From positions 1 to 38,534 of the forward strand of contig JAISJU010000086.1 in NCBI GenBank assembly GCA_031261165.1: DNA of 38,534 nt. The letters are read 5' to 3'. Below, in pieces: positions 2 to 28,874 of the stretch. A program made the position numbers and the translations under genes. The stretch's first letter is position 1. The number at the start of each line of letters is the position of its first letter. The notes under the pieces are model-generated. The model was not told the origin of the DNA and did no database searches. It saw only the letters and a list, made by a program, of their open reading frames with translations. The DNA comes from Prevotellaceae bacterium (lineage in GTDB: Bacteria > Bacteroidota > Bacteroidia > Bacteroidales > Paludibacteraceae).

Positions 2-877
2 ACGGACTTCTACGAAAAATACATCGCCAAATATCCCGACGACAAAGGTACAAAAGCCACATACAAGTCTATGTTTATCTGTATGTCAAAATTTTCAGAC
101 GTAAATAAATTATACATTACCGATATTGACCTGCCGTACATAAAAGACTTTGATATTTCTATGATAGAAAGCGGGCTGAAAACCAACACCCGCGCCATCT
201 ATATGCGCAATATCCGCGCCATTATTAACGATGCCATCGACCGGAACATTTACCCGCTTGAGAACTACCCCTTTCGCCGCTTTAAAATTAAAAAAGAACA
301 AACCGAGCACAGGGCAATGGAACTGCGCGACCTCATAAAACTCCGCGACTACCCCTGTACCCCCGAACAACAAAAACCCCGCGACATCTTTATGCTCTCG
401 TTTTACCTGCGCGGACTAAATACCGGCGACCTGCTACATCTCACACCGGAAGACATAAGAGACGGATACATCATCACAAGAAGAACAAAAACCAGCGTAC
501 CCCTCAAAATCAAAATAGAGCCTGAGGCTGCCGCAATAATAGAAAAATATAAGGGCATAAACTATATACTAAATCCGTTAGATAGCCAAAAAGACTATTT
601 GGAATTTTGCCGAAACGCCAACCGCCGCCTTAAAGACATCGGCGGAACGCCCGGCAGCAAACATTCCCAACCCCTGTTTCCCTACCTTTCTATGTATTGG
701 GCGCGGCACACGTGGGCAACCATTGCTGCCGAATTGGATATTGAAGACAAAATCATATCCATCGGACTTGGGCACTCGCTAACAGACATCACCGAAACAT
801 ACATCCGCCGCAGCCAAACAAAAATAGACGATGCCAACCGAAAAATCATTGACCACCTAAACAATTTTAAATTATGA
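2..877 (+). CDS. Tyrosine recombinase / phage integrase, 5' truncated by window edge
   Basis: Frame is open upstream of the listed ATG to base 2 (TDFYEKYIAKYPDDKGTKATYKSMFICMSKF...). Catalytic-domain motifs FYLRGLNTGDL, YWARHTWATIAAE and LGHSLTDITETYIRR. Confidence 0.9.
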   Translation, partial: TDFYEKYIAKYPDDKGTKATYKSMFICMSKFSDVNKLYITDIDLPYIKDFDISMIESGLKTNTRAIYMRNIRAIINDAIDRNIYPLENYPFRRFKIKKEQTEHRAMELRDLIKLRDYPCTPEQQKPRDIFMLSFYLRGLNTGDLLHLTPEDIRDGYIITRRTKTSVPLKIKIEPEAAAIIEKYKGINYILNPLDSQKDYLEFCRNANRRLKDIGGTPGSKHSQPLFPYLSMYWARHTWATIAAELDIEDKIISIGLGHSLTDITETYIRRSQTKIDDANRKIIDHLNNFKL

Positions 878-1131
878 TAAATCAAACCATCTCAGACCTT
901 TTGCGCGAACAAAAAAAGACAAAAACAGATTTTGCCGATGCGCTCGGCATTGCGCGAAATACATTAAATAATTATCTTTCGGGAGAAACGCTGATGACTT
1001 CCGACAAAATCATTATTGCCGCAAAATATTTCGGCGTGTCTGTCGGCTATCTCTTTGGCGAAATGCCCACCGAAAAAGAAAAAACCATATCCGAAAAATT
1101 AGATATAGTTATTTCATTATTAGCACATTAG
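874..1131 (+). CDS. XRE/Cro-like HTH transcriptional regulator
   Basis: DFADALGIARNTLNNYLSGE helix-turn-helix pattern; ATGA overlap with integrase stop. Confidence 0.75.
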   Translation: MINQTISDLLREQKKTKTDFADALGIARNTLNNYLSGETLMTSDKIIIAAKYFGVSVGYLFGEMPTEKEKTISEKLDIVISLLAH

Positions 1132-1153: not shown

Positions 1154-3270
1154 TCACCACGCCGTTCTCTCTTTCTTAATCTTGCTCATATCTATTCTTT
1201 CCGCTTTTCGCGGCAATTCCATTTGGTAGTCAATATACAAACCAATCATAGTTGCCATTATCCTGTCATCGTGTTTGCCCGCTATCGCGCCCCAGCCGCC
1301 ATTTTTCTTACATTCGTAAGTCAATGCCTCATCTACCGTTGCTCTGTCTCGCTCGCCATAAGCCCAACTTACCTTACGCAAATTGTCGAGTATCTGATTG
1401 TAGTTTGATATTATTGCCGATTTCGTTTCCCTCAACATCGGAAATCCGTAATGTGTTGTTTGATTGTTTTTAGATTTATCGCTTGTCTTATATTTATACA
1501 GATTGTCGTAGTGGTCTTTTATTGTTTCAAAAATATATTCGTTAAAATCCACCTGATTATTGTTGCTGTCATAAGTATTAGATTCTACAACCAACAGCGC
1601 ATCGTTGTAATATTTTGCCAACTGTGCCGCTATCCATATCGTAACATACATATTCTTATGACCGTAAAACATTGCTACCACATTTGTTCCCTCGCCATAC
1701 ATTCGCCAGTATCTATCCAAAACTTTTATCACACCGTAGTCCGCACCGTCTGACTGACCTTTTTGCGGGTCGAACACCACAATGTAGCGGTTTTCTATTC
1801 TCTGCTCTTTGTCCGGTTGTTCCCAAATCTGTATCTTATTCAAAAGTTTGCGCCGCCGCGTATCTGCATCGCCTTTTTCGGCTATTTCCGCTAATTCCGC
1901 ATCAGGCACAAAGCGAATATTTTTCAATACTTCCGAGCGGCGTTTTGTATCTACAAATGCTATTTCCGGCGCACAGTCGCTCACAAACTCACCCACTTCC
2001 ACCGGCGCACAACATTCATCATATAGCCTCCGTACCAACTCGTGATTGAATGCCGGGATACCGCTATTCTGAAATGCCTCTATGTCATCGCTCGGATTTT
2101 CCTGTCTCATTATCTCTATACTCGGTGAAGTTGCCAACTCCAACCTGTACCAATTCAAATTTTCCAACGTACAGCGTTTGTTATTTTTCCAAAGATTGAT
2201 TTCATAGTCATTCATCGTTTCTATAAAATCTTCTGTACTTCCTTTCTTCTTTTTGCCGTTGTGCTGATAATATCCGCCGTCAAAAGCAATCTCTTTCGAT
2301 TCCGAATTATACCACGCCGAAAAGTGAGCCGTAAAAGCCGTTGCTCCTGCCTTTGCTTTTTGCCATTGGTCATAAAAAAAACCGCCTACGCCATTTGCCG
2401 TACTCTCGCGAATAAATGCACAAAACGCGCCGTGAGAACGTGAACTGTTTAATGTCCCCTCTATTTTTTTAGGATTGTTGTTGTCTGTGTCGGGGTAAAA
2501 TGCTTCTTCCGAAAGATGTACCAATTTAAAGTTGTGCGACCGCAAATTTTCAGGCTCACCAGCAAAACCTAAAATAATCCTGCAACCCCTTTCCGGCACA
2601 TATTGAATATTCTGCGCACTCTCAAATCCGCGCATCGTCATCTTAACGCCTTTTATCGGTGGCATCTCGTCAAGCATTGTCTTATACATCGCACGAATAT
2701 TAACAGCCGTGTCGCGCACCTGCCCGCATATCACGCTGTTCCAATTCTCTTTATGTATCGTCTGAATGTAGTTGAATAAAGCCTCAACATAAGTAGAAAA
2801 TCCCTGCTGCTTGGCTTTTAGTATCTCCGCCAATATTTCTTCACCCGCCACTAATTTTGGCAATACTACATTGGCGTGAAAATCTCTTTGGCAAAGATTA
2901 AAAATAAAAGGCTTTATTTCGCCCGTTTCTTTTATCACAAGTTTCTGGCAAGTCGCAGCAAAAAACTCAAAATCATACTTATAACGTTCTTCGCATAACT
3001 TCAACCAAAAAAATTTTATTTCTTCATTGCTGGGTTTCTTGTTAAGCCCTATAGATTTAAGAGCCTTTTTGATAGAGCCGTGTTCAAGTAGTAATTGCAC
3101 GGATTTAAGACCGCGCATAGATTTGGGAAAGTAAAATTCGTATGGTTTTTTTTCCGAAACGAGCACAACAAACCGCTCGCCGCAACAATTCAACCCGCTT
3201 ATGGGATTGTATTCTTTTTTTTTTCAGCGTTGCGCCGCGCGTTTTCCTGTATGATTTGTTCCGTAGTCAT
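1154..3270 (-). CDS. terL: Phage terminase large subunit; apparent start ATG at 3270 followed by a -1 frame discontinuity at an A10 run (3215-3224); main ORF 1154..3193
   Basis: Walker A-like AKQQGFST, Walker B-like LVHLSEEAF, nuclease-like VVFDPQKGQSDGADYGVIKVL. ORF 3193 begins with TTG; a short frame MTTEQIIQENARRNAEKKK begins at ATG 3270 overlapping the upstream stop (TAATG). Confidence 0.85.
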
Positions 3271-4094
3271 TAAAACTTATATTTCACCCCAAAATAATGC
3301 CCATTCTCTTTTATTACATACTGATACTCCGCACCAATATGCCTGTAAAAACAACCGCCGCCGAGCATTAGCCCACTCCGGTCGGTGAGCGAAGTCGAAC
3401 CGCCCAAATAACCCAAACTCAAAAACGGCTCAATTCTTCGGTCATTGAGCGAAGCCGAAATGCGGTTGGTGAGCGATGGTTGGTGAGCGAAGTCGAACCA
3501 AGTCGAACCACGCCCGGCGGTACTGGCTGTTACTATCCGCTGCACCGGCGTAAACTCCGCCGAAAACCGCGTAATCTCATTATATTGAACTGTCGCAAAA
3601 ACAATACATTTCCCCACCGTATCATTATCAATCACCGTCAAGCGATAATCCCGCGCCAAAATATAATCCCTAATCAATGCCAAAGTATCTATTGACTGCA
3701 TAATATACAATGTATCCCGCAATGTCCGTTCGGCGAGCGAAGTGCTGTTAGTTCTGTCATTGCGGGCTTGGTTACTGTTGTCATTGCGGGCTTGGTTACT
3801 GAGCGCAGCCGAAGTATGACCTGCAACCCCCTGCCCAGCGCGGTCGCTGAGCGAAGTCGAAGTGCGGTCGCTGAGCGAAGTCGAAGCGTTCCTAACCCTC
3901 TCAGGCACTTCCACCCTCTCCGGCAATCGTTCCGCCACCACCCTCAAACTATCTTTCGGCAGTTCCACCCTGACAGCAGGCAGCGGCACATAATTCACAG
4001 TTTCGGTAGTTTGCGGGCGGAAATAACAACCGCCCACAAAACCGAAACCAAAAACTAAACCTAAAAACACTATGTAGAAAATTACCTTTTTCAT
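3270..4094 (-). CDS. Membrane-anchored protein in lysis region (possible spanin-like), with many repeat-derived insertions
   Basis: N-terminal hydrophobic segment MKKVIFYIVFLGLVFGFGFVGGCYF; located between terL and endolysin; multiple STSLSDR / GVAGHTSAALSNQARND insertions. Confidence 0.5.
   Translation of the reverse strand: MKKVIFYIVFLGLVFGFGFVGGCYFRPQTTETVNYVPLPAVRVELPKDSLRVVAERLPERVEVPERVRNASTSLSDRTSTSLSDRAGQGVAGHTSAALSNQARNDNSNQARNDRTNSTSLAERTLRDTLYIMQSIDTLALIRDYILARDYRLTVIDNDTVGKCIVFATVQYNEITRFSAEFTPVQRIVTASTAGRGSTWFDFAHQPSLTNRISASLNDRRIEPFLSLGYLGGSTSLTDRSGLMLGGGCFYRHIGAEYQYVIKENGHYFGVKYKF
3380..3515 (+). repeat. Family A mini-element cluster (GAGCGAAGTCGA core)
   Basis: CGGT-core-ACCG, CATT-GAGCGAAGCCGA-AATG, TGGT-core-ACCA copies inside CDS 3270..4094. 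Confidence 0.9.
3756..3888 (+). repeat. Nested element cluster: 24-bp duplicated outer part, 54-bp composite element, two 24-bp units
   Basis: GTCATTGCGGGCTTGGTTACTG at 3756 and 3780; composite 3780-3833; CGGTCGCTGAGCGAAGTCGAAG at 3841 and 3865. Confidence 0.9.
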
Positions 4095-4110
4095 AACTTT
4101 GCATTATTTG

Positions 4111-4156
4111 GTCGCTGAGCGAAGTCGAAGCGTGGTCGCTGAGCGAAGTCGAAGCG
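4111..4156 (+). repeat. Two tandem 24-bp Family A units abutting the endolysin stop codon
   Basis: GGTCGCTGAGCGAAGTCGAAGCGT repeated back to back. Confidence 0.9.
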
Positions 4157-6175: not shown

Positions 6176-7303
6176 TTATACTTGTATGCTTGTGTTAATA
6201 TGATATTTCCCTGTAAAAGAATTTTTTATAATATTTATTTCCGTGTATTTTCCTGCGGAAACAGATATTGAGGTATAGCCGTTTGCCACATAATTACTTG
6301 TATTCGGTATCGCAATAGTCCTTTGCGCTGCACAATAAACGGTAATAATAACAGGTTGATTTGACATACTTATACTGCTAACCGACAAAGCCTCATTGGC
6401 AGTCAATTCACAGTAGATGTTCTGACAAGTAGCAGCGATATTCTGCAACGATGCAATTGTCTGTGTAGCCGTTATAAATTGCAGTAAAGCAAGCCAATCA
6501 TTAGTAAAGTCGTTTGTCGAAAGCCCTTTGCCGGCAACTTTATCAACCTTATTGGCAAAAAGCAAATCGGTTTCATTTTTTGTGTAATAAGAGGACAAAT
6601 CCACCTCAAAATCCAAACGGTTAAACTTACCCCCAAACCAGTAATACCCTTCCGTAGATGGGTATTCTGAAAACAAATCGCCATTTTTGATGGCAACGTG
6701 CGCGGTGGCTACGTTCCACGCAGAACCGTCCCAAATAAGTATATTCACAAAATCGGTAGCATCTGTATCGCCGTCCGTTTCAGGAATTATTGCGATATGG
6801 GTAATGCTGTCGGCGGGTGTCGGCGGATTTTCTCCATAGTTCAAAATATAGTTAGGCGACCATTCGTCAGGGCTGTACGCAACAATTTCCCATTCTTCGG
6901 TGTCTTCATTCAGAAGTAAGGAATGTGGGCTCAAAAATCCCGTTGCTTTTTCCAGTATCTTTTTGTCTATCGCGCTTTCCTCAACAATTGCCTGCGTGTC
7001 GTTGTTGAGCGTTTCATAGGATATATATTCGTATTGTGCCGTAGCCTCATTGTAAATCAATACTCGCTTGTTTACATTCGCGGGGGTGCTAACTAAAAAA
7101 AAAACGCCGCAAAGTTCCTCCCAATTCTCGGCGGTAACAATAGTGCCGTCAATCGTGGCGGGAGTGGCGGCGAAAATTTGGTTGTTGCCGGATTTTATTA
7201 TAAGATGATTTTTTTCTTCATCAAATCCGACCCTGAAAGTATTGACAGGGTACAACACTCCGTTAATATTAATACTTCCTTCGTTTGAGTTTATTGTCAT
7301 CAT
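6176..7303 (-). CDS. Phage tail fibre/tail-tip protein
   Basis: N-terminal region resembles that of 7359..8000; contains fibre-like FNRLDFEVDLSSYYTKNETDLLFANKVDKVAGKGLS. Confidence 0.5.
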   Translation of the reverse strand: MMTINSNEGSININGVLYPVNTFRVGFDEEKNHLIIKSGNNQIFAATPATIDGTIVTAENWEELCGVFFLVSTPANVNKRVLIYNEATAQYEYISYETLNNDTQAIVEESAIDKKILEKATGFLSPHSLLLNEDTEEWEIVAYSPDEWSPNYILNYGENPPTPADSITHIAIIPETDGDTDATDFVNILIWDGSAWNVATAHVAIKNGDLFSEYPSTEGYYWFGGKFNRLDFEVDLSSYYTKNETDLLFANKVDKVAGKGLSTNDFTNDWLALLQFITATQTIASLQNIAATCQNIYCELTANEALSVSSISMSNQPVIITVYCAAQRTIAIPNTSNYVANGYTSISVSAGKYTEINIIKNSFTGKYHINTSIQV

Positions 7304-8012: not shown

Positions 8013-8768
8013 TTAATTTCGTTTTCGTTTTAAAAATTCCAATAATTCAATCTCATCTTTATTCTCGCTACTCTCTACCCACGAGCCACAGTAATAATGT
8101 ATCCCAACGGCATTTTCCGCCTGCGAGAAGTATTCACCCATTGCATAGCGTTTCGTTTCTTTGGCGGTTAGCGGACTGAAATATTCAGAGGGCAAAAGAC
8201 TTACTTCAAATTTTTTCGGATATCGGTTATACAGTTCCGTTATCTTGGCGGGACCCGTAGACTTCATTATTTGCGTAGGATTGTGCGTACTGTGCACAAT
8301 ATTTATCTCAGCAAAAATGCTGTCAATAAGATATTTGAGAAATTCATTTCCCGGCTCTGCATAAATAAAATACGTTCCAATCAAAAATGGTCGCCTCTCA
8401 AAATCAAATGCGTGTTTCTCCGGCTCTAACCCAAAAACTACCGATGCCTTAGACGCTGTCCCAAAAATCCCCTCCGTCTCAAAAGTCCCAAAAACCTCAA
8501 CATCACTATCAAAATAAACTCCGCCCTCCACATACAAAATCATTAGCCGCAACAAATCCCACCGTTGCACGTTATAGGGCAATGCCTTATATCTGTCATA
8601 CAGAGCAGGAAAATTCCCTTTCACAAAAGCGTTTATTCCCCTGCTGTCATTCCACAACTTATAAACATCGCCCGAGCGCACCGCCGAACGGACTGTATCC
8701 ATCCAGCGTTGCACGGTTCGGGATATTCTTGCGCCCGGCTTCACTTCGTATATCTGATGTATAGTCAT
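8013..8768 (-). CDS. GT32-like (DXD, OCH1-type) glycosyltransferase
   Basis: QRWDLLRLMILYVEGGVYFDSDVEVF is the DXD core typical of Gly_transf_sug/GT32 enzymes. Confidence 0.85.
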   Translation of the reverse strand: MTIHQIYEVKPGARISRTVQRWMDTVRSAVRSGDVYKLWNDSRGINAFVKGNFPALYDRYKALPYNVQRWDLLRLMILYVEGGVYFDSDVEVFGTFETEGIFGTASKASVVFGLEPEKHAFDFERRPFLIGTYFIYAEPGNEFLKYLIDSIFAEINIVHSTHNPTQIMKSTGPAKITELYNRYPKKFEVSLLPSEYFSPLTAKETKRYAMGEYFSQAENAVGIHYYCGSWVESSENKDEIELLEFLKRKRN

Positions 8769-16267: not shown

Positions 16268-16308
16268 AAAAAACACCCGCTAAATTTTTGGTTTAGCGGG
16301 TGTTTTCT
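16268..16308 (-). terminator. Rho-independent terminator of the giant gene, also between convergent genes
   Basis: Perfect 15-bp stem AAAACACCCGCTAAA (16270-16284) / TTTAGCGGGTGTTTT (16292-16306), 7-nt loop, followed by a T run on the minus strand. Confidence 0.9.
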
Positions 16309-19300
16309 CATTCCAATTTCTCAAATTCTTTCAATAATCGTTCAGCCTCTCGTTGCAAAGCACCTTCTCCGTTTATATTATTTCTCTTAAAAATATCTTT
16401 TATTTTTTCCTTTGTTTGCGTTAATGATAATTTATCATTGGCGCGAGCATTCCTTATATTTTCTTCTACCGTTTTTATTTTCTCATATTCTGTTATCAAT
16501 TCCATTTTCTTATAACCCTTTGAATTTTTGTCGTCTTTCATTGAATTGTATAAATTCTCATCTCCTTTTTTAAGGTTTCTTATCTGTGTTTTCAAATAAT
16601 CTGATTTTTTCTCTAAATCTATCCAAGTCATTTGTTTTGCATCAAACTCCTTCGGTTGTTTGATGAACACGTTGGCAAATTGCATCTGACTTACATCTAC
16701 TTGTTTGTCCGGATTGAATATCTGTATGCCGAGCGTTACCATATCGGTTACAAATTTTCCTGTCCCCGCGCTATATCCCTCTATTATTGTCTGTATCTTG
16801 CTCGGATTCCAATCATAAATCCACGCTACATCGTCAGCACTGTTATCGGCTCTCAATTTGCTCTTGTTATTAATAGACCCGCCGCCTGCCTGCCACAAGA
16901 CATCAGACAGCCATTGATAGCCTTCCGGCACATTATGTTTCCCTAATGTCCGCTCGGCTTGCGTGTCTTCCTGTTTTTTTAGGTATTCGGTATTATATGC
17001 CGTGCTGCCCGTGAATTTAATATTCATAAAACAGTCCATAATTGGCTGTATTGAGGTTGGCATTATAGCGTGAGCCGTCAGTTTCAACCCTTTTTCGCTG
17101 AATGGTATTACTCGCCCTGTCCGTTCGTCTATTTGTATCAAATTGAGCCAAAATGTTAGTTGCTCAGGCAAAATATTTCCGGCAAAATAATTCGCGCCGT
17201 CAAGCAATGAGGCACTGATGGCTTTTTTGCCTCTCAATGCAAGTCCCGCCTGCGTTCCCAAACCCCAAAAGGCGCGTAATCCCTGAGGCAAAGGTATTTT
17301 TGCTTTTCCGATGCAAATATTCTGCATCAACTCCCATTCGCTAAAAGCGCGGTTGTCATCATCGCCCACAGGTGTGAATAATGCCTGCAATATTCCGCCT
17401 GCAAAGAAACCACCCATTATGCCAACCATCGCACGCCGAACGCGCTTGTCTTTACACATACGAATTATCTTATTAGTTCCCTGAACAGACGCGTTGAAAA
17501 ACGCAAACAGCATATTGAAAGCCTTTGCAAGATTTCCTTTTCTGTCAAAATTGGTCGTTACCTCTTTGGCGTGTATTGCCGCCTCGCGCCGCGTGTATTT
17601 CGGTGTGCCGTCATTGTTCATCTGCTCGCGGCTCGTTACATACTCGGCAAAGCGAGTGGTCAGTTCCGATACTTCCGTCAGCATACCAAAAGTATGTTTA
17701 AGTGCTACGAGCGGATTGCCGTTGCTCGACAATGCCTCTTTTATCTTGTTTGGCTCTATCGATTGCCGCATATCCTCGCGCAACTGTTTCACGTCTTTTA
17801 AAAAACTCCAACCGGTAGCCGCTCCGTCTTCAAAAAATTCCTGCAATAATTGCCCGTATTTCCCTTCCGTAAAACCGCCCTCACCCTTATATTGTTCACC
17901 GGCGGAATATTGCCAAACCGCACCCTGCACCAAACCAATATTTTTCATAAATTGAGCCTGATAACCAACACCAAACTCAGACAGGTTACTGATACTCGCA
18001 ATTCCAAAGTCGCGCACAAAGTTTGCTGCCGCAAAACTCGGATTATACTGTGTCATCATACCGCTCATAAATCGCGTTCCACTACGCAGCAATTCCTCGC
18101 CTTTAATAATAATGTCATTGTCGGTTTGTCTTTCTACCGTAAATTTTCGGTTGAGAACATTTGCCACGCTCTCGCCTGCATATACCGCCTTACCCTCTGC
18201 ATCTGTTCCAAATACAATTACTACTTCCTTTCCGTTTTCCGTAATGCTCACCTCGTGTTGCTTTTGCTCGGCGCGAGTGCGCTCGGCAGGTCTCATTGCC
18301 TCGTGTCCGCTGTATAGCACATTTAAACTTTCACGCAAACGTATTTCTTCATCTACTAAACGTTTTATCGCTGCCTGAAACAGCGGATTAATAGTTTGCG
18401 CTTTGCCCTGATTCCGCAATATCGCCAAGCGTTGATTCTCTCTCTTCACTGTTGCCTCGCGCTCTGCTGTAATCTTCTGCAATGCCTCGCGGGTTTCTTT
18501 GTCTTCTTTTATAGATGTATTACTCGGCTCTTTGGTCGTGCGCTCGTAAATTATTTTCCCCGATAAATCTGCGCCGTCCGCATCGGTATAACGCTTTGGA
18601 TTGCCGTTTTCGTCATACGTCTTTACATAATACACATTTTTAAATGTAAAAAAATTGTTTTGGCGAGCAAAATCTTGATTTTTGCGGGCAAATTCCAAAA
18701 ATACGCGCTTTGTCTCATTTTTCAAACAAGACATCACCGTACTTTCACCAATACTCTCCATATACGCCAGCGGGTCGCCCGCAAGCGTAGTCCTGCCTTT
18801 CGCTTTTACCAACGCCGCATTGAAAGGATTATCGGGCGTATCGCCTTTTTCCGATACATAAAAACCTTTGTCATCTATCAAATCGCGCTCGCGCCAACCG
18901 CGCTGCGGAACGTAGTATTCGCGTGTCCCGTCTGTATATTTGTCATAAGTGGCTTGGTCTATTATGCCGTACTTCAACTGCATATCCAATGCCCACCTGT
19001 TGGCTGACCGTACTTCGTCCCAAATCTTTTGTATTTTTTTATCGCCCAAAATGCGTTCAAATTCACTGATAAATGTTTCCGGCTCAACGGCATTCCCATT
19101 CTCGTCTTTCACATTGTTTCTAAATCCCTCCGCGCCACGCTCTACCAAACCCAACTTGTCTGCTTCAATAATATCTTTTGCCTGTAAATACAGACTTATT
19201 TTATCGTAATTTCCTACCGGCTTATTATTTATTACCTCACCCAAAGCATTTTCTACGCGCCATTTATATGCCGGCATCTTGTTTAATTTCTTGCTTTCTA

Positions 19301-22300
19301 CAACGCCGCGTAATAACTTTTGCAGTGGCTTGATATGTTTTTGTTTATATTCTTCAATCAAATAAGTAGCGCGGCTTGTGGAAGTAATAATATCATCATA
19401 AGCATTGGTTTCGCTCGTGAGTTTCGCGCCTTTTTCTACCATTAATTTTATGTATTTTTCCAGCGGATAACAGCGGTCAATAAATGCCTTATTAAATTTC
19501 AAACGCTTTTTCATTTCTTTATCCACGTCAGCAAGCGTTTGGCGCGTTTCATTATTAAATTTATTAATTTGTTCCACAATATCTATCAATGACATATTTG
19601 GCGTTATCTTCGGCGGCTTGGGTATGGCTGGCTCAACAAATGAAAGTTCCGTGTCTTTTTCCCATTTATCTATTTGTTTGGCAAATTCATTAATCGGCTG
19701 TCCTGTGTATTTCGGCTTTGGTGCCGCAGGCGCACTCGCCGCCATAAACCGCAGCCCTGTGTCCCTATTGTCCCCCCTGTCCCCCAAATTATCATACAGA
19801 AATATCTGGTCTTCACGCGCCACATCTTCTGTTTCTTCCGCCAAACTCGCGCGGCGTTCTTCGGTGGTCATATTCATACGAGCGGAAACATTACGCGCCT
19901 CTACTTCGCCCGATGTTTTATTGTAACTATCCTGCGGAAAATACTTTTGTTTCTGTCTTGCGCGGTAAAAATCTTCCATAATATCAAACATCTCGTTGCG
20001 TGATATTTCCCCTGTTTTTGCTTTTTGCGCAATGCTAATTATTTCGGGCGTTTTAAACCGTTTCGTTGGTAGAGAGATAAACCAATCCACAAATTTTTTA
20101 CGCGAATTTGATTTATCGTGTTCTGCGTATAAATCTGCGTATTCCTGTATATGCGCAGGCAAAGGCTCTCTAATCCCCTCAAAATATTTTGGATTACTCC
20201 CGTGAGCAAAACCCTCATCTTCCTGTATGTAGTGCTGTATTTCGTGTGCTATAATACCCCTTATTTCATTTAAGTTTTTTTCGGTAATTCCGGCAAAGTC
20301 GCCATCTTCCGTAAACTTTGTTGTAAAATTTACTTCAATCGTGTTTTTATTCCTGTCAAACCGACCGTTATACGATGGCGGTAAAAAAAGCGGGCGCGGC
20401 ATTATGTTTATTGTGGTTTCTGACAACTTAGGAAAAGCCTTTAATAATTCCGTATCTAAAATTATATCGCGTAAGTTACCGCTGTATTCCCCATTACTGT
20501 CTATTTTACTTGCATCAATGTTTATCGGCTCTGTTTCATACCGCCACTTCCCATCAGCCCCACGTTCCCAGCCGGTAGCCAACTTTATTTTTTTTGCAAT
20601 TTCTTTCTCATTTATTTGCAGGATTGAAATTAAACGCTTATCTTTGTGGTCAGAAACAACCTTATTGTTGTCAAGCGAGTTTGGTAATCGTGTAGCATCA
20701 ATGAGGTTTTTCTTTTCTATCAGCGTTAATTCGTGGTCATAATAATAACTGTCGCCCTTTTTCCCAACAACCATTTTTACGGTATAATCTTCCCCGCCTA
20801 TTTTCATACCCGATACATAATACCGATAACTGTCATATTTTCCGTTTTCTTTTGTATTTGGCTCTTCTGTTATAAAAATAGAAGTTTCAATAATTTGTGG
20901 TATTGCAGCAATAGATTTCAAGTGGGCATCGTCGCGCTCTCCGTGAGAAGTTACCTCATTTGCTCCCACGCGAGAAACTCTTATTGTTTCGCCTGTGTCT
21001 TTATTAGTGTAATCATTGCGCAAATGTTCTTTGATATACTCTTTTGCCGACTTGGGGTTTAGTTCATACTTCCCTTTGTATTCCTCCCCTGTTATCTCTA
21101 TCGGCTCGCTCGCTTTCAACTTTTCAATCCGCGCTTTCTTTTCGTCAAAAGCCGTTTCCATATCCCGCGCCACCGCCAAATTATCCAGCCGTGTAGTCGC
21201 CTCTTCCGCACGGTCTAAATTTGCCGCGCCCTGTTTGCCAATAAACTGAAACTGAGTACCATTTTTAGTTTCAGCCTGCGCCGCCCCACCGTCATTGCGG
21301 GCTTGGTTGCTGAGCGAAGTCGAAGTATGACCCGCAATCCCCTTATACTCCGCAAACGGCTTAACTCGCCGCCCATCAGCCTTAGCCCAGTCCCTAAATG
21401 TTTCCACATCAGTTTCGGTAATATTCCCTAACCCTTTCCAACCCTTCTCATAATTCGACAAATAAGCCGCCCGCGCCTCTTCCAAACTGTCAAACCCAAA
21501 CATCACCTTATGCTCATCAAAAGTCCCTTTTGTCCCATCAGTCCCTGCTTTATTTTGGTCAATCACAAAAACTTTCCCACTCAAAGGATTATCCCCCAAG
21601 AAAACATCAATATGGTCGCCGTCCCGCGATTCCGTATTGCCAAAATAACCATAAGTATTGTGCATTTTACTTTCCCAAGCCTTACCGTTTTCATCAACGC
21701 CGCGCCGCACACTCCCTTTCGGCTGCTCAATAAAAATATCAAAGCCCTGAATTTTCACGTGTCCCTTTCGGTAATTTCCCGCCTCTTTCTGCGCCTCTGT
21801 CGGGTTAGTATCCGTTTCGGCTTCCGCCGCCGCAATCTTATCCTGCAAATCCTTTAATTCTGTGTCATTGCGGGCTTGGTTGCTGAGCGCAGTCGAAGTA
21901 TGGTTGCTGAGCGCAGTCGAAGTATGACCCGCAACCCCCTGTTTAATTTCTTTCCCGGAGAGCAAATCCGCCGCCGCCCCATTCACAAACTCATCAAGCG
22001 ACAAGTCCTGTATCTGATTACTGTTAAGGTTGCGAATACCCGCATATTTTCCGATAAACTTCCAAACATCATTCAACCACGCCTTAATCTGCGCCCATTT
22101 CGTTAAAGATAAACTGAGGGGTCTTTGCAATAACGCCTCACCCCTGTCGCCTATCGCCGTTGCCAATGCCTCGCCGATTTTCTCGCGCTCACTTATTTTA
22201 GCGTAATAAGGATTGTCGGCTAAATTTTTGTAATAGTCGGTATCTTTTATAAGTTCCGCGCCGCGCTCGTACAATTCAGAGTTGTTTTGCTCAATAAAAT

Positions 22301-25300
22301 CTACCCACAAATGCCCAAACTCGTGTATCGGCGTGTTGGCGTTCAACAAATTTTTGTCAATCCACATATCTTTGCCGTCCCGCGTAACAAAGCCGTAAAT
22401 TTCGCCTTTCTTGGTGGCAAGCATACGGATATTACTTATTATTTCAATATTATCTTCATTTCTTACTACAACTTGTTTTCCTTTTGGTATTCCGTAGCCC
22501 TCGTGATTAACAATGTATGCGCTTGCATCGGGATATTTTTCATTTATATATTGTTCTATTATATTTCCAAAACGCTGATAATTGCTTTTTGTAACATTTG
22601 GCTTTTTGTAATTTTCAAATTCTTGTGCTGTTTCTTTTATTTTTTCTTTAATGTACGGTATTAAATTTTCATCTGTTGTTAAATCAATAATTTGTGCATC
22701 GTCTTTTAATTTAAACCTTACAATAGAATTAGCACCGGTTGAATAATATTCGCGCATTTTAGAATTATTAGCAGGATAAGCATAAATTCCTTTTCCTGCC
22801 TCACCGTTTGCTTTTGTAAAACCGTATTCTACATCTTCTCTTGCGCCTCTTTCAAATAAATTTTTTACAAAAAACCGAAAATATTCCTCATTTATTTTTG
22901 GATTTTCAAAATTTTGTATTACCTTTGCAGCACGGTTGTAAAGGTTTCTCACCTCAGCGGAATTGTACCGCTGTTGAGAAAACCATACAGCCATTTTTTG
23001 TTTGTCGGCATATTCTGTCAATCCCTCGTCAATCCAATTTGCAATATGCGCGTTTGAAGTTCTGTAATGAATGCTGCGTATATCATTAATTTCAATATTT
23101 CCCTTTTTCCTATTTGCCTCAATAGCAACAACAAAGTTTTTTCCCTTATGCTGTATTTCTGTCAGCACAACATAACTTCCAATGTGCGTTGCACTGCGAA
23201 ATACTGCCAAAGGCTGTTGTATTGCCTGTGGCAAATTCTCTATTTCCAACAAATCAAAGGGGTGGTTTTCCTGCATTGATTTGTCGGATAAGCGGCTCGC
23301 TGCTAACTCGACAGGCAAATTCGGTAAGCCCGCAGCCTGCAATATTGCGCCCGCATTACCAAGTTTATAAATATGTCCTGCGGGTAATTTGCTGACAATC
23401 TGCTGTTGCAATTCCGCATTAAACGCCGCATTTACCTTACTCAACTCCGCCATCTCCGCCATTGCCAAATAACCACCCTCGCCGAGTTTCTTTTCAGCAT
23501 AAGCCCTGTCGGTATGCAATGTGCCTTTAAACAGCCCTGTTTGCCGCAACAATCCCACAAGCCGCTCAAACGCTTTATCACTTATTTTTTGCAGGCGGGC
23601 TTGCGGATTGTTGTGAAACAAAGTCCCCTGCGCATTAAAAGCATCACGCGCCGCCCGTACCTGCGCCGTCTTACCCGCCCGCAAATCCGATACCTGCTTT
23701 TGCAAACCCTTTATCTCCGCTTTCAGCGTAGCAGTAGCGGCACTCTGATTACCCCGCGACACATCGGCGGAAACATCAAACAAACTCATTGTAGGATTAG
23801 TAAAGAGTTTTTGCTGTCGTTCTTCCGCAAACACCCTGTTAATGTGTTCCACTTCCTGCTGCCGCTCTTTTATGCCATTCTCCGCAGAACTTATCTGTTT
23901 ATCTATCTCGGCGGCTCGCAACTGTCCCGCTTCATTGGCGGATTTAGGCGTTACACCGTTTATCTGAAATTTCGGCGCGGTATTTTCGTTTCCACCGTCA
24001 TTCTCATTCCGGTTGCTGAGCGAAGTCCGGTTGCTGAGCGAAGTCGAAGCATCTACCAAATCCCACTCATTATTAAAATCATATCCCGCAGGGCGATAAA
24101 AATTCTCATTCACAAAACGCAACTCTTCATCTGTTAGAACTTCGCCCATCGCCATTTTATCTTCGAGCGTAGCAGTCATTATTTCTTCAGGCGTCAATCC
24201 ATATCGCTCTGCCAACTCCGCCTGCCGATTTTCAAATTCAGCATTAAGCCGTGCCGTTTCTTCTGCCAAACTTGCTTTATCCGCAGCCGATTTCTTCTCT
24301 GCATTCTTGCGGAACTCCATAATAACCGGCATTAATTCCTCTTTCAGTTTGGCATTTTCATTGATTAGTTGTTTAGCCTCATTTTCCTCTTTCGCAGATA
24401 ATTTATTTTTACGAGATTTTATTTTCAACTCCCGTAACTTTTGGTTGTTTTTGTTGATTTTTTCCGTTTTTTCTTGCACACTTTCAGAATTTGCCGTATC
24501 TTTGCCGTCAGAAACAGCATCGGGGGCGACAGCCCTGCCCCCATAATTGCTATCAGGGGTTAATGGGGTGTTAGCAGATGCTGTTTTTTCTTCTACTGTT
24601 TTGCTGTTGTCGAATGCAGTAAGTACCCAATTTTTACCATCTTCCGAACGAGCAACCACAACCCTGTATCCATCTTTATCTATTCTTGCGTTGTTATTAT
24701 TTTGAATAGTAACAATTCCATTTTCAACAACATCTTCAATTACTTCTGCCGCTTTTTCTAAACTTTCAAAATCGTTCTGCCTGTTAATATGCTTGTCTAT
24801 AATTTTCTGTAATCCCTGTTTTTCATTACCCCATATTAAATCTATATCGCCTATCTCGTTTCTGTGAAATACACCCAACAGGTCGCCGTTTTTTATTTTT
24901 TCCAAAAATGTAAACGCCTCTTTCGCTTTCCCCTTAAATTGGTCATAAATATTCCCAAACGCGCCTTTACCTATCGGCTGTGGCTCGTTATTGTCCTTAA
25001 AGTCCCTATTATCCTTAATTCTATCAACTCCCGTAAAAACCTGCCCCAGCCCATTCAACTTCAACACATCAATAAGCACATCGGCAGGCACGCGCTCGCC
25101 AAACATCGGCACGCCACCCCGCGCCTCATCGCGCACAGAGTTATTATACTCCTCAAAAATCTTCCGAAGTTTAGCCGTTTCCCGCTTGTCGTCAATCGCC
25201 AAAGCCATTGCCAAATTAATGGCTTGGTCGCTGTGTGCGCCGTTCAGTATATCTTGCTGCCTGCCCTCTATCTCCACGTGCACACCACTCGCATTAGCCG

Positions 25301-28300
25301 CCGTTACTATCTCTATCGCCTCGCTCAAATAATCCGTAATATCAAAATTTAAAGTACCGTCATTGCGGGCTTGACCCGCAACCCCCTGTGTGCCGCTGTC
25401 ATTGCGGGTTTGACCCGCAATCCCCCCAAAACTCCTGTTTTCAATTATCTGCGGAATGGCTTTAAAAATAACAGCCTTTTGCGTTTCATTAAATTTCATT
25501 ATTTGCGCAATGTCGGCGGCTTTACCCTGAAATGCCGCGCCCAGCATCGCCGTTTCGAGGAAGTCGCGCCCCGTTCCGGTCATTGTACCGTTTTCATTCA
25601 CAAATTGCGCAATATCGGTATCCTGTATCACGCCCTCGTTTCTCAAGAAAGACAATATTTCAGCCGTCCGTTTCGGGTCATTGTATATTTCGCTCAGATT
25701 ATCAATGTCATTCAGATAACCGGCAATATTATTCACCGTTACGGTATTTAATGCCTTACTCTGCGCTTTTGCCTTTTCGGTGGTTGATTGCGATTTTTTC
25801 TCATCGGCATTGAATTTTTTGAAATTCGCCGTTGTCAATTCAATGGGGCTGTCCGGCACGAATACAATGCGCGGGTGCTCAAACTGCCCCACCTGTTCCG
25901 GCGTAAAGCCGTAGTTACGCCCATATTTGCCAATATATTCGTTATACGCGCCGTCTGTGTCCTGCTGCGCGGCTATCTGTCCCGCCATTGTCCTGCCGTT
26001 ACCGCTTACTGTTACGCCTGTTGCACCATCTACCACAATGCCTATTGCGCCCCTGTCAAAATGCTGCGCCATACCGATAGTTATTTCCTGCGCCGCTTTG
26101 TCGTTCTGATAATCGCGGTCATTCACATTCTCTCCGCGCTCGTTGGTGGGGAAACCCGCCGTGCTTGCAAAATTATTGTTCACATCGTGGCTCGGCGTAA
26201 ACGCACCCTGTTCGGTCAATACATACTTGCCCGGTATTACCTCGCCGTTGGCAAGCCTCATTTCATCGGCATTGCCCTCTATTTTCGGCGCATCATTCCA
26301 ACGCGCCACAATACCGGCAAAGTCATCACCCGTTACACTCCCCTGCTCACCAGCCGCACGGCGTTCATCGCGCTGCTGTATGCGGGTTTGCATAGCCGCC
26401 TCACTATCAGCGCGTTGCTGCTTCACAAGTGCGGAATTTTCTATATAATTGTCATAAACGGCTTTGTTTTCCCGCAAACGGGCTATCTCTTTTATGCCAC
26501 TTACCGTTTTAGGCTGTTTGCTCAAAGCAGTTATTTTATTGAAAATATCTCTACTTTGTTCTTTGGCAATATCCAAAATATCCGATTCTTTCAAACCCTC
26601 ATACTCAGCATATCGTAGTTGTTGCTCAGGCGACATCTGTTTCTCATCAGCATTACCTCGCCTGTCGGTGGGCAAACCCTCATAAAACGCCTGCCGTTCC
26701 TTATCAACATCACCGTCATTATCAACACCGCCATCATTGCGGGCTTGGTTACTGAGCGGAGCCGAAGTATGACCCGCAACCCCCTGTGCCCCACTGTCAT
26801 TGCGGGCTTGGTTGCTGAGCGAAGTCGAAGTATGACCCGCAACCCCCTCTTGGTTAGAAGCATCAGGAAACAAATTTATAATTTCCTCTTCCGAAGCCTT
26901 CCACGGAACAACATCGCCATTATTCGTGATTATATCCGTATTATAAGTCCCATCAGCATTCCTGCTTTTCACCCTTATTCTCCCATCAGCATTCTCAAAC
27001 TCCTGTCCCGACAAGTCAACATTTGGCGTGTCTTGTGTCTTGGCTCTTGGCTCTTGCATCTCATTAATATACTGCGCTATCTCCACATTCTCAGCACCAA
27101 TCTGCTCATCTATCAACGCATTTTCCGCCAAAACAGCATCATATAAACTCGTCTCATTGTCTATTGCCCTTATCTTCTCGCGAGCAACCGGCATTACCCG
27201 CGGCTGTCCCGTCTCCTCGTCTATGCTGCCGTCACGGTAATACACAATCTCGTCGCTTCCCTGCAAGTCCGGTATAACGCCACCGCTTTCTTCACGCGAT
27301 GTGCGCAAACCGCTCACTATCTCTACCGGATTATCAACGCCCTCTACCTGCGCCGTAACGATTGTGCCTGTCGTCTTGTTTGTGCGGGATTGTAGCCGCT
27401 CGGCAGTCTGCTCACGCCGAGCGTTAATATTCTGTTCACGCCGCGCCGCTGTTTGCTTTGCCAAATTCGCAAACTGCATATAATTCAACACAGACTGCTT
27501 CTGCTCAGCAGACAAAGCCGCATCGGACATCACCGTCAAAGCATACTCTTTCTGCTGCTCAACCGGCAAATCTATTATTTGAGGATTAAACGTAAATTGA
27601 CCGTTCAAAGAGCGTTGCATATTGTCAAACGCCTGCTTGCTCGTGATTTGCATACTGGCAATATTCTCCGGCGACAAGTCGAAGTCTTGCGGTAATTGTG
27701 GATTTACTGCTTGGGATATTTGGGCTTCGCGCTCGGCAGATTGTTGATTTCTTAAATTATGGTAGCCAATTGCCGTACCAATGCCCTGACCGCCAACGCT
27801 CACGGGACCTGCGCCTGCAACTCCATAAACAAACGCATCGCGGGTGCCATCCCAAATACTGCCGTCTTTTTTTACGCCACTAATTTTGTCTATTATGTTT
27901 TCACCCGTATTCGATATGATTTCTTCGCCACCTTCGCCAGCCATTCCTAAGACCGTATTCACTGCCGCCTGACCAAATAACTTGGCGGCAGCGCTTTTTC
28001 CCACCTTGCCAATTATGTTTTTTACTAATTTGGTATCTAATACACCACCCGCTCTTTCAGATAAATATTCTATCAATCCGGTAAATCCCGAATTAAGCAA
28101 CATAGCCTCTTCGCTCATTTCCGGATTGTTTTGTTTTAGTTGCTCATATTTTTGATTGGCAACATCAATATATATTAGCGGCGCGGTGTAGGGGTTCATC
28201 GCCATTAATGTGCTCGGCGCACTTTCCAAACCTTTATTTAATGCCTGATTGACAGCATCAAAGTGTCTTCCCTCTTGCCATAAGTCTGAATAATCTTTCG

Positions 28301-28874
28301 GAACTGTATTGCCGTTTTCATCTATTTTTGTGCCATAACGTCTATTGGCGTGCGCAGAAATCCTGTCGGAAAGGTCTTTGCCTTTGTTATATATCTCTCT
28401 TGCGCTTGCTTCTAAATTTTTTCGTTGCTCTTCTAATGGCGGAGCACCGGTAGACATATCATAAGCCATATTGGTGCCTCCACCCATAGCCAAAGGTTTA
28501 TAAACACTGGAATTGGCGGCTTTCATAAGGAAATTTCCCAAACTGTTTCCCGTTCTCACAACGCCGCTGGCTAAACTCTCAGCACCTTCAATAACTCTTT
28601 CGCCAACAGCCTTTTGTAATACGCCCGGCTTAAAGGCATAATCCCAAAATGTAGGGTCGTCAAAATAACCCTTTTCTTTATCAAAACCCAATTTTTGATT
28701 ATATGTTGTTTCATCACCTAAATCGAAATTATGCGCAGTAGCAACATTAAATAGTTGCTTGCGCCTTGCCGGGTCTTGAATATTTTTTTCAAATGTCGCA
28801 TAATCGCCAACGTCAAAATTATTTGCCGTCAAAACGTCGTGCATTCTTTTTGCGTTTTCTTTATTTAGTCCCAT
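16308..28874 (-). CDS. Giant 4188-aa phage polyvalent protein (ParB/DdrB-like, MuF/PBECR-like, ART-like, metallopeptidase, inorganic-pyrophosphatase-like and LPD-type regions)
   Basis: Motifs: GIVVDGATGVTVSGNGRTMAGQ (DdrB/ParB-like); TEIQHKGKNFVVAIEANRKKGNIEINDIRSIHYR (MuF-C/PBECR-like); GKGIYAYPANNSKMREYY (ART-like); TPIHEFGHLWVDF and IIAHEIQHYIQEDEG (HExxH); ESRDGDHIDVFLGDNPLSGKVFVIDQ (InPase-PolyVal-like); TRFMSGMMTQYNPSFAAANFVRDFGIAS (LPD38-like). Confidence 0.85.
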   Translation of the reverse strand: MGLNKENAKRMHDVLTANNFDVGDYATFEKNIQDPARRKQLFNVATAHNFDLGDETTYNQKLGFDKEKGYFDDPTFWDYAFKPGVLQKAVGERVIEGAESLASGVVRTGNSLGNFLMKAANSSVYKPLAMGGGTNMAYDMSTGAPPLEEQRKNLEASAREIYNKGKDLSDRISAHANRRYGTKIDENGNTVPKDYSDLWQEGRHFDAVNQALNKGLESAPSTLMAMNPYTAPLIYIDVANQKYEQLKQNNPEMSEEAMLLNSGFTGLIEYLSERAGGVLDTKLVKNIIGKVGKSAAAKLFGQAAVNTVLGMAGEGGEEIISNTGENIIDKISGVKKDGSIWDGTRDAFVYGVAGAGPVSVGGQGIGTAIGYHNLRNQQSAEREAQISQAVNPQLPQDFDLSPENIASMQITSKQAFDNMQRSLNGQFTFNPQIIDLPVEQQKEYALTVMSDAALSAEQKQSVLNYMQFANLAKQTAARREQNINARREQTAERLQSRTNKTTGTIVTAQVEGVDNPVEIVSGLRTSREESGGVIPDLQGSDEIVYYRDGSIDEETGQPRVMPVAREKIRAIDNETSLYDAVLAENALIDEQIGAENVEIAQYINEMQEPRAKTQDTPNVDLSGQEFENADGRIRVKSRNADGTYNTDIITNNGDVVPWKASEEEIINLFPDASNQEGVAGHTSTSLSNQARNDSGAQGVAGHTSAPLSNQARNDGGVDNDGDVDKERQAFYEGLPTDRRGNADEKQMSPEQQLRYAEYEGLKESDILDIAKEQSRDIFNKITALSKQPKTVSGIKEIARLRENKAVYDNYIENSALVKQQRADSEAAMQTRIQQRDERRAAGEQGSVTGDDFAGIVARWNDAPKIEGNADEMRLANGEVIPGKYVLTEQGAFTPSHDVNNNFASTAGFPTNERGENVNDRDYQNDKAAQEITIGMAQHFDRGAIGIVVDGATGVTVSGNGRTMAGQIAAQQDTDGAYNEYIGKYGRNYGFTPEQVGQFEHPRIVFVPDSPIELTTANFKKFNADEKKSQSTTEKAKAQSKALNTVTVNNIAGYLNDIDNLSEIYNDPKRTAEILSFLRNEGVIQDTDIAQFVNENGTMTGTGRDFLETAMLGAAFQGKAADIAQIMKFNETQKAVIFKAIPQIIENRSFGGIAGQTRNDSGTQGVAGQARNDGTLNFDITDYLSEAIEIVTAANASGVHVEIEGRQQDILNGAHSDQAINLAMALAIDDKRETAKLRKIFEEYNNSVRDEARGGVPMFGERVPADVLIDVLKLNGLGQVFTGVDRIKDNRDFKDNNEPQPIGKGAFGNIYDQFKGKAKEAFTFLEKIKNGDLLGVFHRNEIGDIDLIWGNEKQGLQKIIDKHINRQNDFESLEKAAEVIEDVVENGIVTIQNNNNARIDKDGYRVVVARSEDGKNWVLTAFDNSKTVEEKTASANTPLTPDSNYGGRAVAPDAVSDGKDTANSESVQEKTEKINKNNQKLRELKIKSRKNKLSAKEENEAKQLINENAKLKEELMPVIMEFRKNAEKKSAADKASLAEETARLNAEFENRQAELAERYGLTPEEIMTATLEDKMAMGEVLTDEELRFVNENFYRPAGYDFNNEWDLVDASTSLSNRTSLSNRNENDGGNENTAPKFQINGVTPKSANEAGQLRAAEIDKQISSAENGIKERQQEVEHINRVFAEERQQKLFTNPTMSLFDVSADVSRGNQSAATATLKAEIKGLQKQVSDLRAGKTAQVRAARDAFNAQGTLFHNNPQARLQKISDKAFERLVGLLRQTGLFKGTLHTDRAYAEKKLGEGGYLAMAEMAELSKVNAAFNAELQQQIVSKLPAGHIYKLGNAGAILQAAGLPNLPVELAASRLSDKSMQENHPFDLLEIENLPQAIQQPLAVFRSATHIGSYVVLTEIQHKGKNFVVAIEANRKKGNIEINDIRSIHYRTSNAHIANWIDEGLTEYADKQKMAVWFSQQRYNSAEVRNLYNRAAKVIQNFENPKINEEYFRFFVKNLFERGAREDVEYGFTKANGEAGKGIYAYPANNSKMREYYSTGANSIVRFKLKDDAQIIDLTTDENLIPYIKEKIKETAQEFENYKKPNVTKSNYQRFGNIIEQYINEKYPDASAYIVNHEGYGIPKGKQVVVRNEDNIEIISNIRMLATKKGEIYGFVTRDGKDMWIDKNLLNANTPIHEFGHLWVDFIEQNNSELYERGAELIKDTDYYKNLADNPYYAKISEREKIGEALATAIGDRGEALLQRPLSLSLTKWAQIKAWLNDVWKFIGKYAGIRNLNSNQIQDLSLDEFVNGAAADLLSGKEIKQGVAGHTSTALSNHTSTALSNQARNDTELKDLQDKIAAAEAETDTNPTEAQKEAGNYRKGHVKIQGFDIFIEQPKGSVRRGVDENGKAWESKMHNTYGYFGNTESRDGDHIDVFLGDNPLSGKVFVIDQNKAGTDGTKGTFDEHKVMFGFDSLEEARAAYLSNYEKGWKGLGNITETDVETFRDWAKADGRRVKPFAEYKGIAGHTSTSLSNQARNDGGAAQAETKNGTQFQFIGKQGAANLDRAEEATTRLDNLAVARDMETAFDEKKARIEKLKASEPIEITGEEYKGKYELNPKSAKEYIKEHLRNDYTNKDTGETIRVSRVGANEVTSHGERDDAHLKSIAAIPQIIETSIFITEEPNTKENGKYDSYRYYVSGMKIGGEDYTVKMVVGKKGDSYYYDHELTLIEKKNLIDATRLPNSLDNNKVVSDHKDKRLISILQINEKEIAKKIKLATGWERGADGKWRYETEPINIDASKIDSNGEYSGNLRDIILDTELLKAFPKLSETTINIMPRPLFLPPSYNGRFDRNKNTIEVNFTTKFTEDGDFAGITEKNLNEIRGIIAHEIQHYIQEDEGFAHGSNPKYFEGIREPLPAHIQEYADLYAEHDKSNSRKKFVDWFISLPTKRFKTPEIISIAQKAKTGEISRNEMFDIMEDFYRARQKQKYFPQDSYNKTSGEVEARNVSARMNMTTEERRASLAEETEDVAREDQIFLYDNLGDRGDNRDTGLRFMAASAPAAPKPKYTGQPINEFAKQIDKWEKDTELSFVEPAIPKPPKITPNMSLIDIVEQINKFNNETRQTLADVDKEMKKRLKFNKAFIDRCYPLEKYIKLMVEKGAKLTSETNAYDDIITSTSRATYLIEEYKQKHIKPLQKLLRGVVESKKLNKMPAYKWRVENALGEVINNKPVGNYDKISLYLQAKDIIEADKLGLVERGAEGFRNNVKDENGNAVEPETFISEFERILGDKKIQKIWDEVRSANRWALDMQLKYGIIDQATYDKYTDGTREYYVPQRGWRERDLIDDKGFYVSEKGDTPDNPFNAALVKAKGRTTLAGDPLAYMESIGESTVMSCLKNETKRVFLEFARKNQDFARQNNFFTFKNVYYVKTYDENGNPKRYTDADGADLSGKIIYERTTKEPSNTSIKEDKETREALQKITAEREATVKRENQRLAILRNQGKAQTINPLFQAAIKRLVDEEIRLRESLNVLYSGHEAMRPAERTRAEQKQHEVSITENGKEVVIVFGTDAEGKAVYAGESVANVLNRKFTVERQTDNDIIIKGEELLRSGTRFMSGMMTQYNPSFAAANFVRDFGIASISNLSEFGVGYQAQFMKNIGLVQGAVWQYSAGEQYKGEGGFTEGKYGQLLQEFFEDGAATGWSFLKDVKQLREDMRQSIEPNKIKEALSSNGNPLVALKHTFGMLTEVSELTTRFAEYVTSREQMNNDGTPKYTRREAAIHAKEVTTNFDRKGNLAKAFNMLFAFFNASVQGTNKIIRMCKDKRVRRAMVGIMGGFFAGGILQALFTPVGDDDNRAFSEWELMQNICIGKAKIPLPQGLRAFWGLGTQAGLALRGKKAISASLLDGANYFAGNILPEQLTFWLNLIQIDERTGRVIPFSEKGLKLTAHAIMPTSIQPIMDCFMNIKFTGSTAYNTEYLKKQEDTQAERTLGKHNVPEGYQWLSDVLWQAGGGSINNKSKLRADNSADDVAWIYDWNPSKIQTIIEGYSAGTGKFVTDMVTLGIQIFNPDKQVDVSQMQFANVFIKQPKEFDAKQMTWIDLEKKSDYLKTQIRNLKKGDENLYNSMKDDKNSKGYKKMELITEYEKIKTVEENIRNARANDKLSLTQTKEKIKDIFKRNNINGEGALQREAERLLKEFEKLE
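21291..21344 (+). repeat. 54-bp composite element in giant gene
   Basis: GTCATTGCGGGCTTG-GTTGCTGAGCGAAGTCGAAGTATG-ACCCGCAATCCCCTT. Confidence 0.95.
21864..21941 (+). repeat. 78-bp composite element with two tandem 24-bp inner units
   Basis: GTCATTGCGGGCTTG-(GTTGCTGAGCGCAGTCGAAGTATG)x2-ACCCGCAACCCCCTG. Confidence 0.95.
24009..24054 (+). repeat. Family A, 18-bp partial plus 24-bp unit, in giant gene
   Basis: CGGTTGCTGAGCGAAGTC followed by CGGTTGCTGAGCGAAGTCGAAGCA. Confidence 0.9.
25359..25427 (+). repeat. Two 30-bp outer elements lacking the inner 24-bp unit (empty form)
   Basis: GTCATTGCGGGCTTGACCCGCAACCCCCTG (25359-25388) and GTCATTGCGGGTTTGACCCGCAATCCCCCC (25398-25427). Confidence 0.95.
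26733..26849 (+). repeat. Two 54-bp composite elements in giant gene
   Basis: 26733-26786 and 26796-26849, both with inner 24-bp unit. Confidence 0.95.

Follow-up and report, generated by a model that had tools for sequence, protein, structure and literature searches.

The window, the whole 38,534-nucleotide stretch analysed here, carries a phage terminase gene, terL, whose 5' end is interrupted by a run of ten A residues. The features of the locus are as follows.

1154-3217, minus strand: TerL body of 687 codons in the -1 frame, ATPase/nuclease-like, without a usable start codon before the conserved N-terminus (matches to PHROG terminases and T4 gp17; 57 homologues)
3199-3270, minus strand: zero-frame 5' segment of ATG, 23 codons and TAA, coding for TerL residues 1-18, up to the junction (ATG 18 codons ahead of the common position, as most often seen in homologues; II.ENARRNA conserved)
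3215-3224, minus strand: A10, the candidate slippage tract (same length and same codon in the related genes L019/L180, L126 and L130)
3214-3220, minus strand: in-frame heptamer A_AAA_AAG, a dnaX-type -1 slippery site (also present in L019 and L126)
3191-3193, minus strand: TTG, the first listed start in the terL frame (replaced by the non-start codons CTT in L019 and CTA in L126)
3270-4094, minus strand: upstream gene of 274 aa, its end overlapping the terL ATG as TAATG

The A10 tract of the coding strand (T10 at 3215-3224 on the plus strand) splits terL near its 5' end. The TAA of the upstream gene (3272-3270) overlaps an ATG (3270-3268), and this ATG opens a short frame, MTTEQIIQENARRNAEKKKNTIP*, that spans 3270-3199 and crosses the tract as GCT GAA AAA AAA AAG AAT, with A_AAA_AAG in phase. 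The terL frame contains an in-frame TGA at 3226-3224 and is then open down to 1154; past the A10, the -1 continuation reads KEYNPISGLNCCGERFVVLVSEKKPYEF. Joining the two frames at the A-run gives MTTEQIIQENARRNAEKKKEYNPISGLNCCGERF, and the predicted junction peptide surrounds AEKKKEYNPISGLNCCGER. This anatomy agrees in every element with that described in the first-pass annotation, including the -1 continuation into the terminase, the TTG at 3193 as the first start in the terL frame with a TGA upstream, and the TAATG at 3270. The protein matched PHROG terminase families, the terminases of isolated phages, T4 gp17 and full-length phage homologues, with sequence homology across the ATPase and nuclease regions that assigns it to the TerL class. 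In the window (71-1131), in L126 (5092-6987) and in L071 (5542-7447), terL faces convergently oriented integrase and HTH genes, a conserved terL-integrase arrangement.

We gathered TerL relatives from related genomes, IMG/VR and GTDB contigs and compared 57 distinct N-termini. In 54 of them an in-frame start precedes the common position, usually by 16-27 codons and most often by 18, and an MTTEQ-like segment is fused in frame to the remainder of the protein. The homologues share a segment resembling II.ENxRR, followed by Y[DN]P..G....ER. When joined at the tract, the TerL of the window aligned without gaps to the unsplit homologue L071 (MTTEQIIQENARRNADKKKDYDPVSGLNCCGDRF), with its ATG exactly 18 codons upstream. 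Each of the three split genes among the 57 reads ENARRNAEKKK[DE]Y[DN]P[IV]SGL once joined, gapless against the in-frame genes L071 and L011 and again with the ATG 18 codons upstream. Both sides of the frame junction are homologous to the unsplit protein: the 54 unsplit homologues are co-linear with it, and the junction is conserved in L019, L126 and L130.

The earlier reading had named homologues that begin at the TTG and lack the MTTEQ segment as an argument against a fusion. We observed the opposite, as the segment is present in all homologues whose start could be read. A start of TerL at TTG 3193, or re-initiation there after the TAA at 3201-3199 with the upstream peptide irrelevant, would be physically possible because the TTG lies 5 nt past the stop in the window. 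However, L019 has CTT and L126 has CTA at this codon, so that the TTG is not conserved as a start in the other two split genes, and the resulting protein would lack two features conserved in homologues, the II.ENARRNA segment and the residues YNP.SG. We regard this explanation as scarcely credible. In all three split genes, the terL frame lacks a start codon from its preceding stop up to the conserved block.

The three split genes (3 of 57 distinct N-termini: the window, L019/L180 and L126) all carry an A10 at the same codon with the same -1 relation. The second (L019/L089/L180) is on contig WRGS01000224.1 of a Bacteroidales MAG, and its TerL is 72% identical to that of the window. This contig is titled Paludibacter sp. 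MAG, isolate Nc150P4bin22, an isolate name that we read as pointing to a termite-gut origin. The third, L126, encodes a TerL 53% identical to that of the window, and its nearest relative (L071) is unsplit. L126 and L130 are identical across 3486 aligned bases and come from different metagenomes. First scans of viral contigs with the TerL of the window or of L019 returned one distant relative or none; L126 and L130 were recovered from viral contigs with a degenerate DNA pattern spanning the A-run. When IMG/VR was scanned for A-runs of at least 7 before a DY.P..G block, the only close TerL relatives were L126 and L130. L196, from the same scan, showed a weak terminase-like match elsewhere on its contig and had an A7 site in frame, and the other matches were unrelated. 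A-runs at the site do not exceed 7 in the 54 unsplit TerL homologues, and only three distinct split genes are known. A tract of this length is not unusual in itself: dinucleotide shuffles predict 2.9 A10 runs for the window, which has 2. What lies beyond chance is the same A10 and frame relation at one codon in other phages, with the other TerL homologues compared being in frame.

An A10 is a type of site prone to sequencing errors, and the real terL might accordingly be in frame, the split reflecting a homopolymer error in sequencing or assembly. Against this, four assemblies agree in tract length and frame (window, L019, L126 and L130, the last two from two metagenomes), and other 10-nt A/T runs within long ORFs of the assembly are in frame (L048, L062, L052 and window 7095-7104). 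The run at 7095-7104, a second 10-nt A/T run in the window, lies in frame inside a 375-aa gene (6176-7303) and serves as an internal control. The MAG contains about 35 runs of at least 10 A/T, from which A10 sites were sampled; T11, T12 and A13 runs are present, indicating that longer tracts are not trimmed in assembly. It is improbable that an isolated homopolymer error would strike this single codon in each of three phages, one of them assembled from two metagenomes, and we consider an error quite unlikely as the origin of the split.

Comparison of the TerL genes of the window and L019 yielded a dN of 0.22 and a dS of 2.57 (NG86; dN/dS about 0.09), with synonymous sites near saturation, indicating strong purifying selection on the TerL body. 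At 70% nucleotide identity between the two genes, the A10 is kept exactly. It is part of a 27-nt stretch, GCGCGGCGCAACGCTGAAAAAAAAAAG, that is identical in both and comprises nine identical codons (GCG CGG CGC AAC GCT GAA AAA AAA AAG); the longest identical run elsewhere in the gene is seven codons. Lysine codons were AAA in 455 cases and AAG in 199. The A-runs themselves need no selection, since EKKK[DE] written in AAA-biased codons readily yields long A-runs.

These data also bear on recent inactivation of terL in a defective prophage, as might be suspected from a prophage-like contig in a bacterial MAG on which integrase and HTH genes adjoin terL. The marks of a pseudogene, relaxed selection and further disabling changes, were absent from the comparison with L019 (dN/dS as above) and from the 687-codon body, which is open throughout without further disruption. 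Moreover, the split is shared with L019 at near-saturated synonymous divergence and is present in L126 and L130 too, and the neighbouring genes are long and intact. Recent decay is highly improbable in our view. The first-pass annotation had listed slippage, decay and a sequencing indel without choosing among them. The recurrence of the split in diverged phages renders both sequencing error and recent decay unlikely, and the identical split in three diverged phages under purifying selection favours slippage that is functional, if not necessarily programmed.

A maximum-likelihood tree placed the window and L019 in one clade (support 100/100) and L126 with the unsplit L071 (86/99). The split state would have changed at least twice on this tree, because L126 joins an unsplit gene and the window joins L019. 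Either the split arose twice, or it arose once and was later lost; the support for the L126/L071 grouping is good, not decisive. Long A-runs mutate quickly, and phase variation or mixed populations are therefore conceivable: replication slippage at the A-run would toggle terL at the DNA level, and the assemblies would have caught the off state. A10 is long enough for hypermutability, and an off state could be tolerated by a prophage. However, across the 57 N-termini and the IMG/VR scan (A7 or longer), all split-type assemblies have the same out-of-frame length and none has an in-frame long run, and a phage in the off state would be unable to package its own DNA. We consider phase variation very unlikely.

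Most probably, then, terL of the window is a functional gene whose two parts, separate in the DNA, are joined by slippage at the A10 as the gene is expressed. Translation would begin at ATG 3270. At the A10, RNA polymerase may change the number of A residues in some transcripts, one extra or two fewer restoring the frame; alternatively, the ribosome may slip back by one nucleotide on A_AAA_AAG. Either route would enter the TerL frame and yield MTTEQIIQENARRNAEKKKEYNPISGLNCCGERF..., and unshifted reading would stop at 23 residues. Full-length TerL would thus result from only a fraction of events, at a lower dose. The comparisons above show the anatomy, the recurrence in three diverged phages, the continuity of the joined protein and the purifying selection on the body; from these we infer slippage itself, whereas the machine responsible and its efficiency are matters of conjecture.

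Two candidate RNA structures flank the tract.

3225-3237, minus strand: possible 5' RNA hairpin (CGGCG-CAA-CGCUG) that directly abuts the A-run (suggestive only)
3191-3209, minus strand: downstream 6-bp hairpin CAAUCC...GGGUUG, 4 nt past the slip site (no stronger than in shuffled sequences, not conserved)

With regard to ribosomal slippage, a dnaX-type heptamer X_XXY_YYZ is present in phase (A_AAA_AAG at 3220-3214), as it is in all three split genes. No conserved 3' stimulatory structure was detected, with z-scores for 40-nt folds of 0.23 (window), 1.10 (L019) and -0.23 (L126). The 6-bp hairpin of the window was rejected as a 3' stem-loop stimulator because it is no better than shuffles and is absent from L019. 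By eye, we found no upstream Shine-Dalgarno-like stimulator in the window or L019 (GCGCGGCGCAACGCTG), and an AGGAA only in L126. In E. coli, AAG is read only by the weakly pairing tRNA-Lys(UUU). The MAG contains both tRNA-Lys(UUU) and tRNA-Lys(CUU), and thus departs from the dnaX-type situation of a sole tRNA-Lys(UUU); the host tRNA-Lys(CUU) should hold AAG better than tRNA-Lys(UUU).

With regard to transcriptional slippage, the A10 at the frame junction reaches the length of at least 9 A/T associated with slippage at poly(A) tracts. An uninterrupted A10 is preserved, although the slippery heptamer needs just six A residues and a G; the long A-run could also have come about incidentally when the frameshift arose. 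The window and L019 have a 5-bp 5' hairpin, and L126 has a different one (CCGCA-GGAA-UGCGG, around 2972-2985), also flush with the A-run. Stems of at least 5 bp arose in 6.8% of random synonymous codings, so that a chance origin of these 5' hairpins is possible. Hairpin-driven slippage reportedly removes one nucleotide, a finding ascribed to Penno et al. 2015. The loss of one nucleotide would give the wrong frame here; we thus rejected this route and retain the 5' hairpin as suggestive only. In balance, we place transcriptional slippage slightly ahead of ribosomal slippage, because the whole A10 is kept (longer than a ribosome needs), the 9-A threshold is reached, a conserved 3' structure is absent and the host has tRNA-Lys(CUU).

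Slippage at A-runs is already known from IS elements, dnaX and endosymbionts. In Buchnera and Blochmannia, frameshifts in poly(A) tracts are rescued by transcriptional slippage (PMC3017870, PMC5009743), with 12-50% corrected transcripts from split genes of endosymbionts (PMC5009743). As in those genes, terL has a single frameshift in a long A-run, an intact and constrained body, and a split conserved between species. It differs in being a phage packaging gene in a moderate-GC host with few long A-runs, and in recurring at one codon in separate phage lineages. The parallel with AT-rich symbionts drawn in the first-pass annotation does not extend to the host, which has a 3.04-Mb MAG and is not an extremely AT-rich endosymbiont (window about 36-49% GC). 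Transcriptional slippage is also described for Thermus dnaX and IS elements, at A/T runs of 9 or more (Baranov et al. 2005, PMC1088944). In many bacteria, selection against slippage is evident at a length of 9 nt (PMC1088944), and 9 A residues are a known threshold for bacterial RNA polymerase. The terL A-run is likewise at or above 9 nt, and IS elements also fuse a first frame to a second; in contrast, the first frame of terL supplies just 18 residues, and the unshifted product has no known role. Compared with dnaX-type -1 ribosomal frameshifting on A_AAA_AAG (PMC3711429), all three split genes have the exact heptamer in the correct phase, but differ by the lack of a conserved 3' stem-loop, by the lack of a Shine-Dalgarno-like stimulator in the window and by the host tRNA-Lys(CUU).

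The best-known recoded genes of phages are those for tail chaperones and capsids. The -1 frameshifts of phage tail-assembly chaperones (Xu et al. 2004, as cited in PMC7911831) likewise affect a morphogenesis gene. The tail-chaperone shift is late and adds a second isoform, whereas a shift at codon 18 of terL would gate the whole protein. For the terminase of Streptomyces phage Hau3, a translational bypass has been proposed (as cited in PMC5009743), likewise a case of non-standard decoding; the bypass is possibly tied to a UUA codon and not to A-tract slippage. The Hau3 bypass was the only terminase precedent in the literature searched, which contained no A-tract or -1 frameshift recoding of terL, and the text of the GeneTack survey does not mention terminases. 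What is new is the A-run split in an unexpected gene, terL, and its recurrence in diverged phages.

The recurrence and long persistence of the split make it compatible with phage survival; a benefit does not follow from this. Few motor subunits are required per particle. We suggest tentatively, as an idea somewhat short of an even chance, that A10 slippage at terL codon 18 is a selected, independently evolved dosage gate in temperate Bacteroidales phages, the packaging motor being made from a minor fraction of transcripts or ribosomes. Such programmed control of packaging would be the first described for any terminase. If slippage joins the frames, terL, on which the detection and classification of tailed phages most often rely, can be functional despite a split in its DNA; gene callers would mis-start or miss such genes and label the prophages defective. 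The packaging motor would then join the short list of recoded phage genes, in a phylum with little study of recoding. The two apparent origins at one codon offer a testable case of whether slippage rescue is selected or merely tolerated.

Several further observations concern the surroundings of terL and its homologues. A dispersed repeat found host-wide, TTCGACTTCGCTCAGCGACC with its variants, is present in 16 copies in the window, all on the minus strand (3380-4153, 11720, 12569, 15636, 21305-21921, 24029, 26810, 31747 and 38081). Several copies lie within coding genes, among them the immediate upstream neighbour of terL and a giant gene, and dozens of host contigs carry the repeat. The giant gene (16308-28874; 4188 aa) is TAATG-coupled to its upstream neighbour. 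In a related Bacteroides phage, a giant gene labelled DarB-like antirestriction adjoins the portal gene. A phage gene at 8013-8768 encodes a DXD sugar-transferase domain (PF04488), possibly for glycosylation of the host surface or the virion. Finally, the TerL homologues of three isolated Bacteroides phages (PQ571263.1, PQ571269.1 and PQ571277.1) carry the annotation 'tail spike protein', apparently in error.
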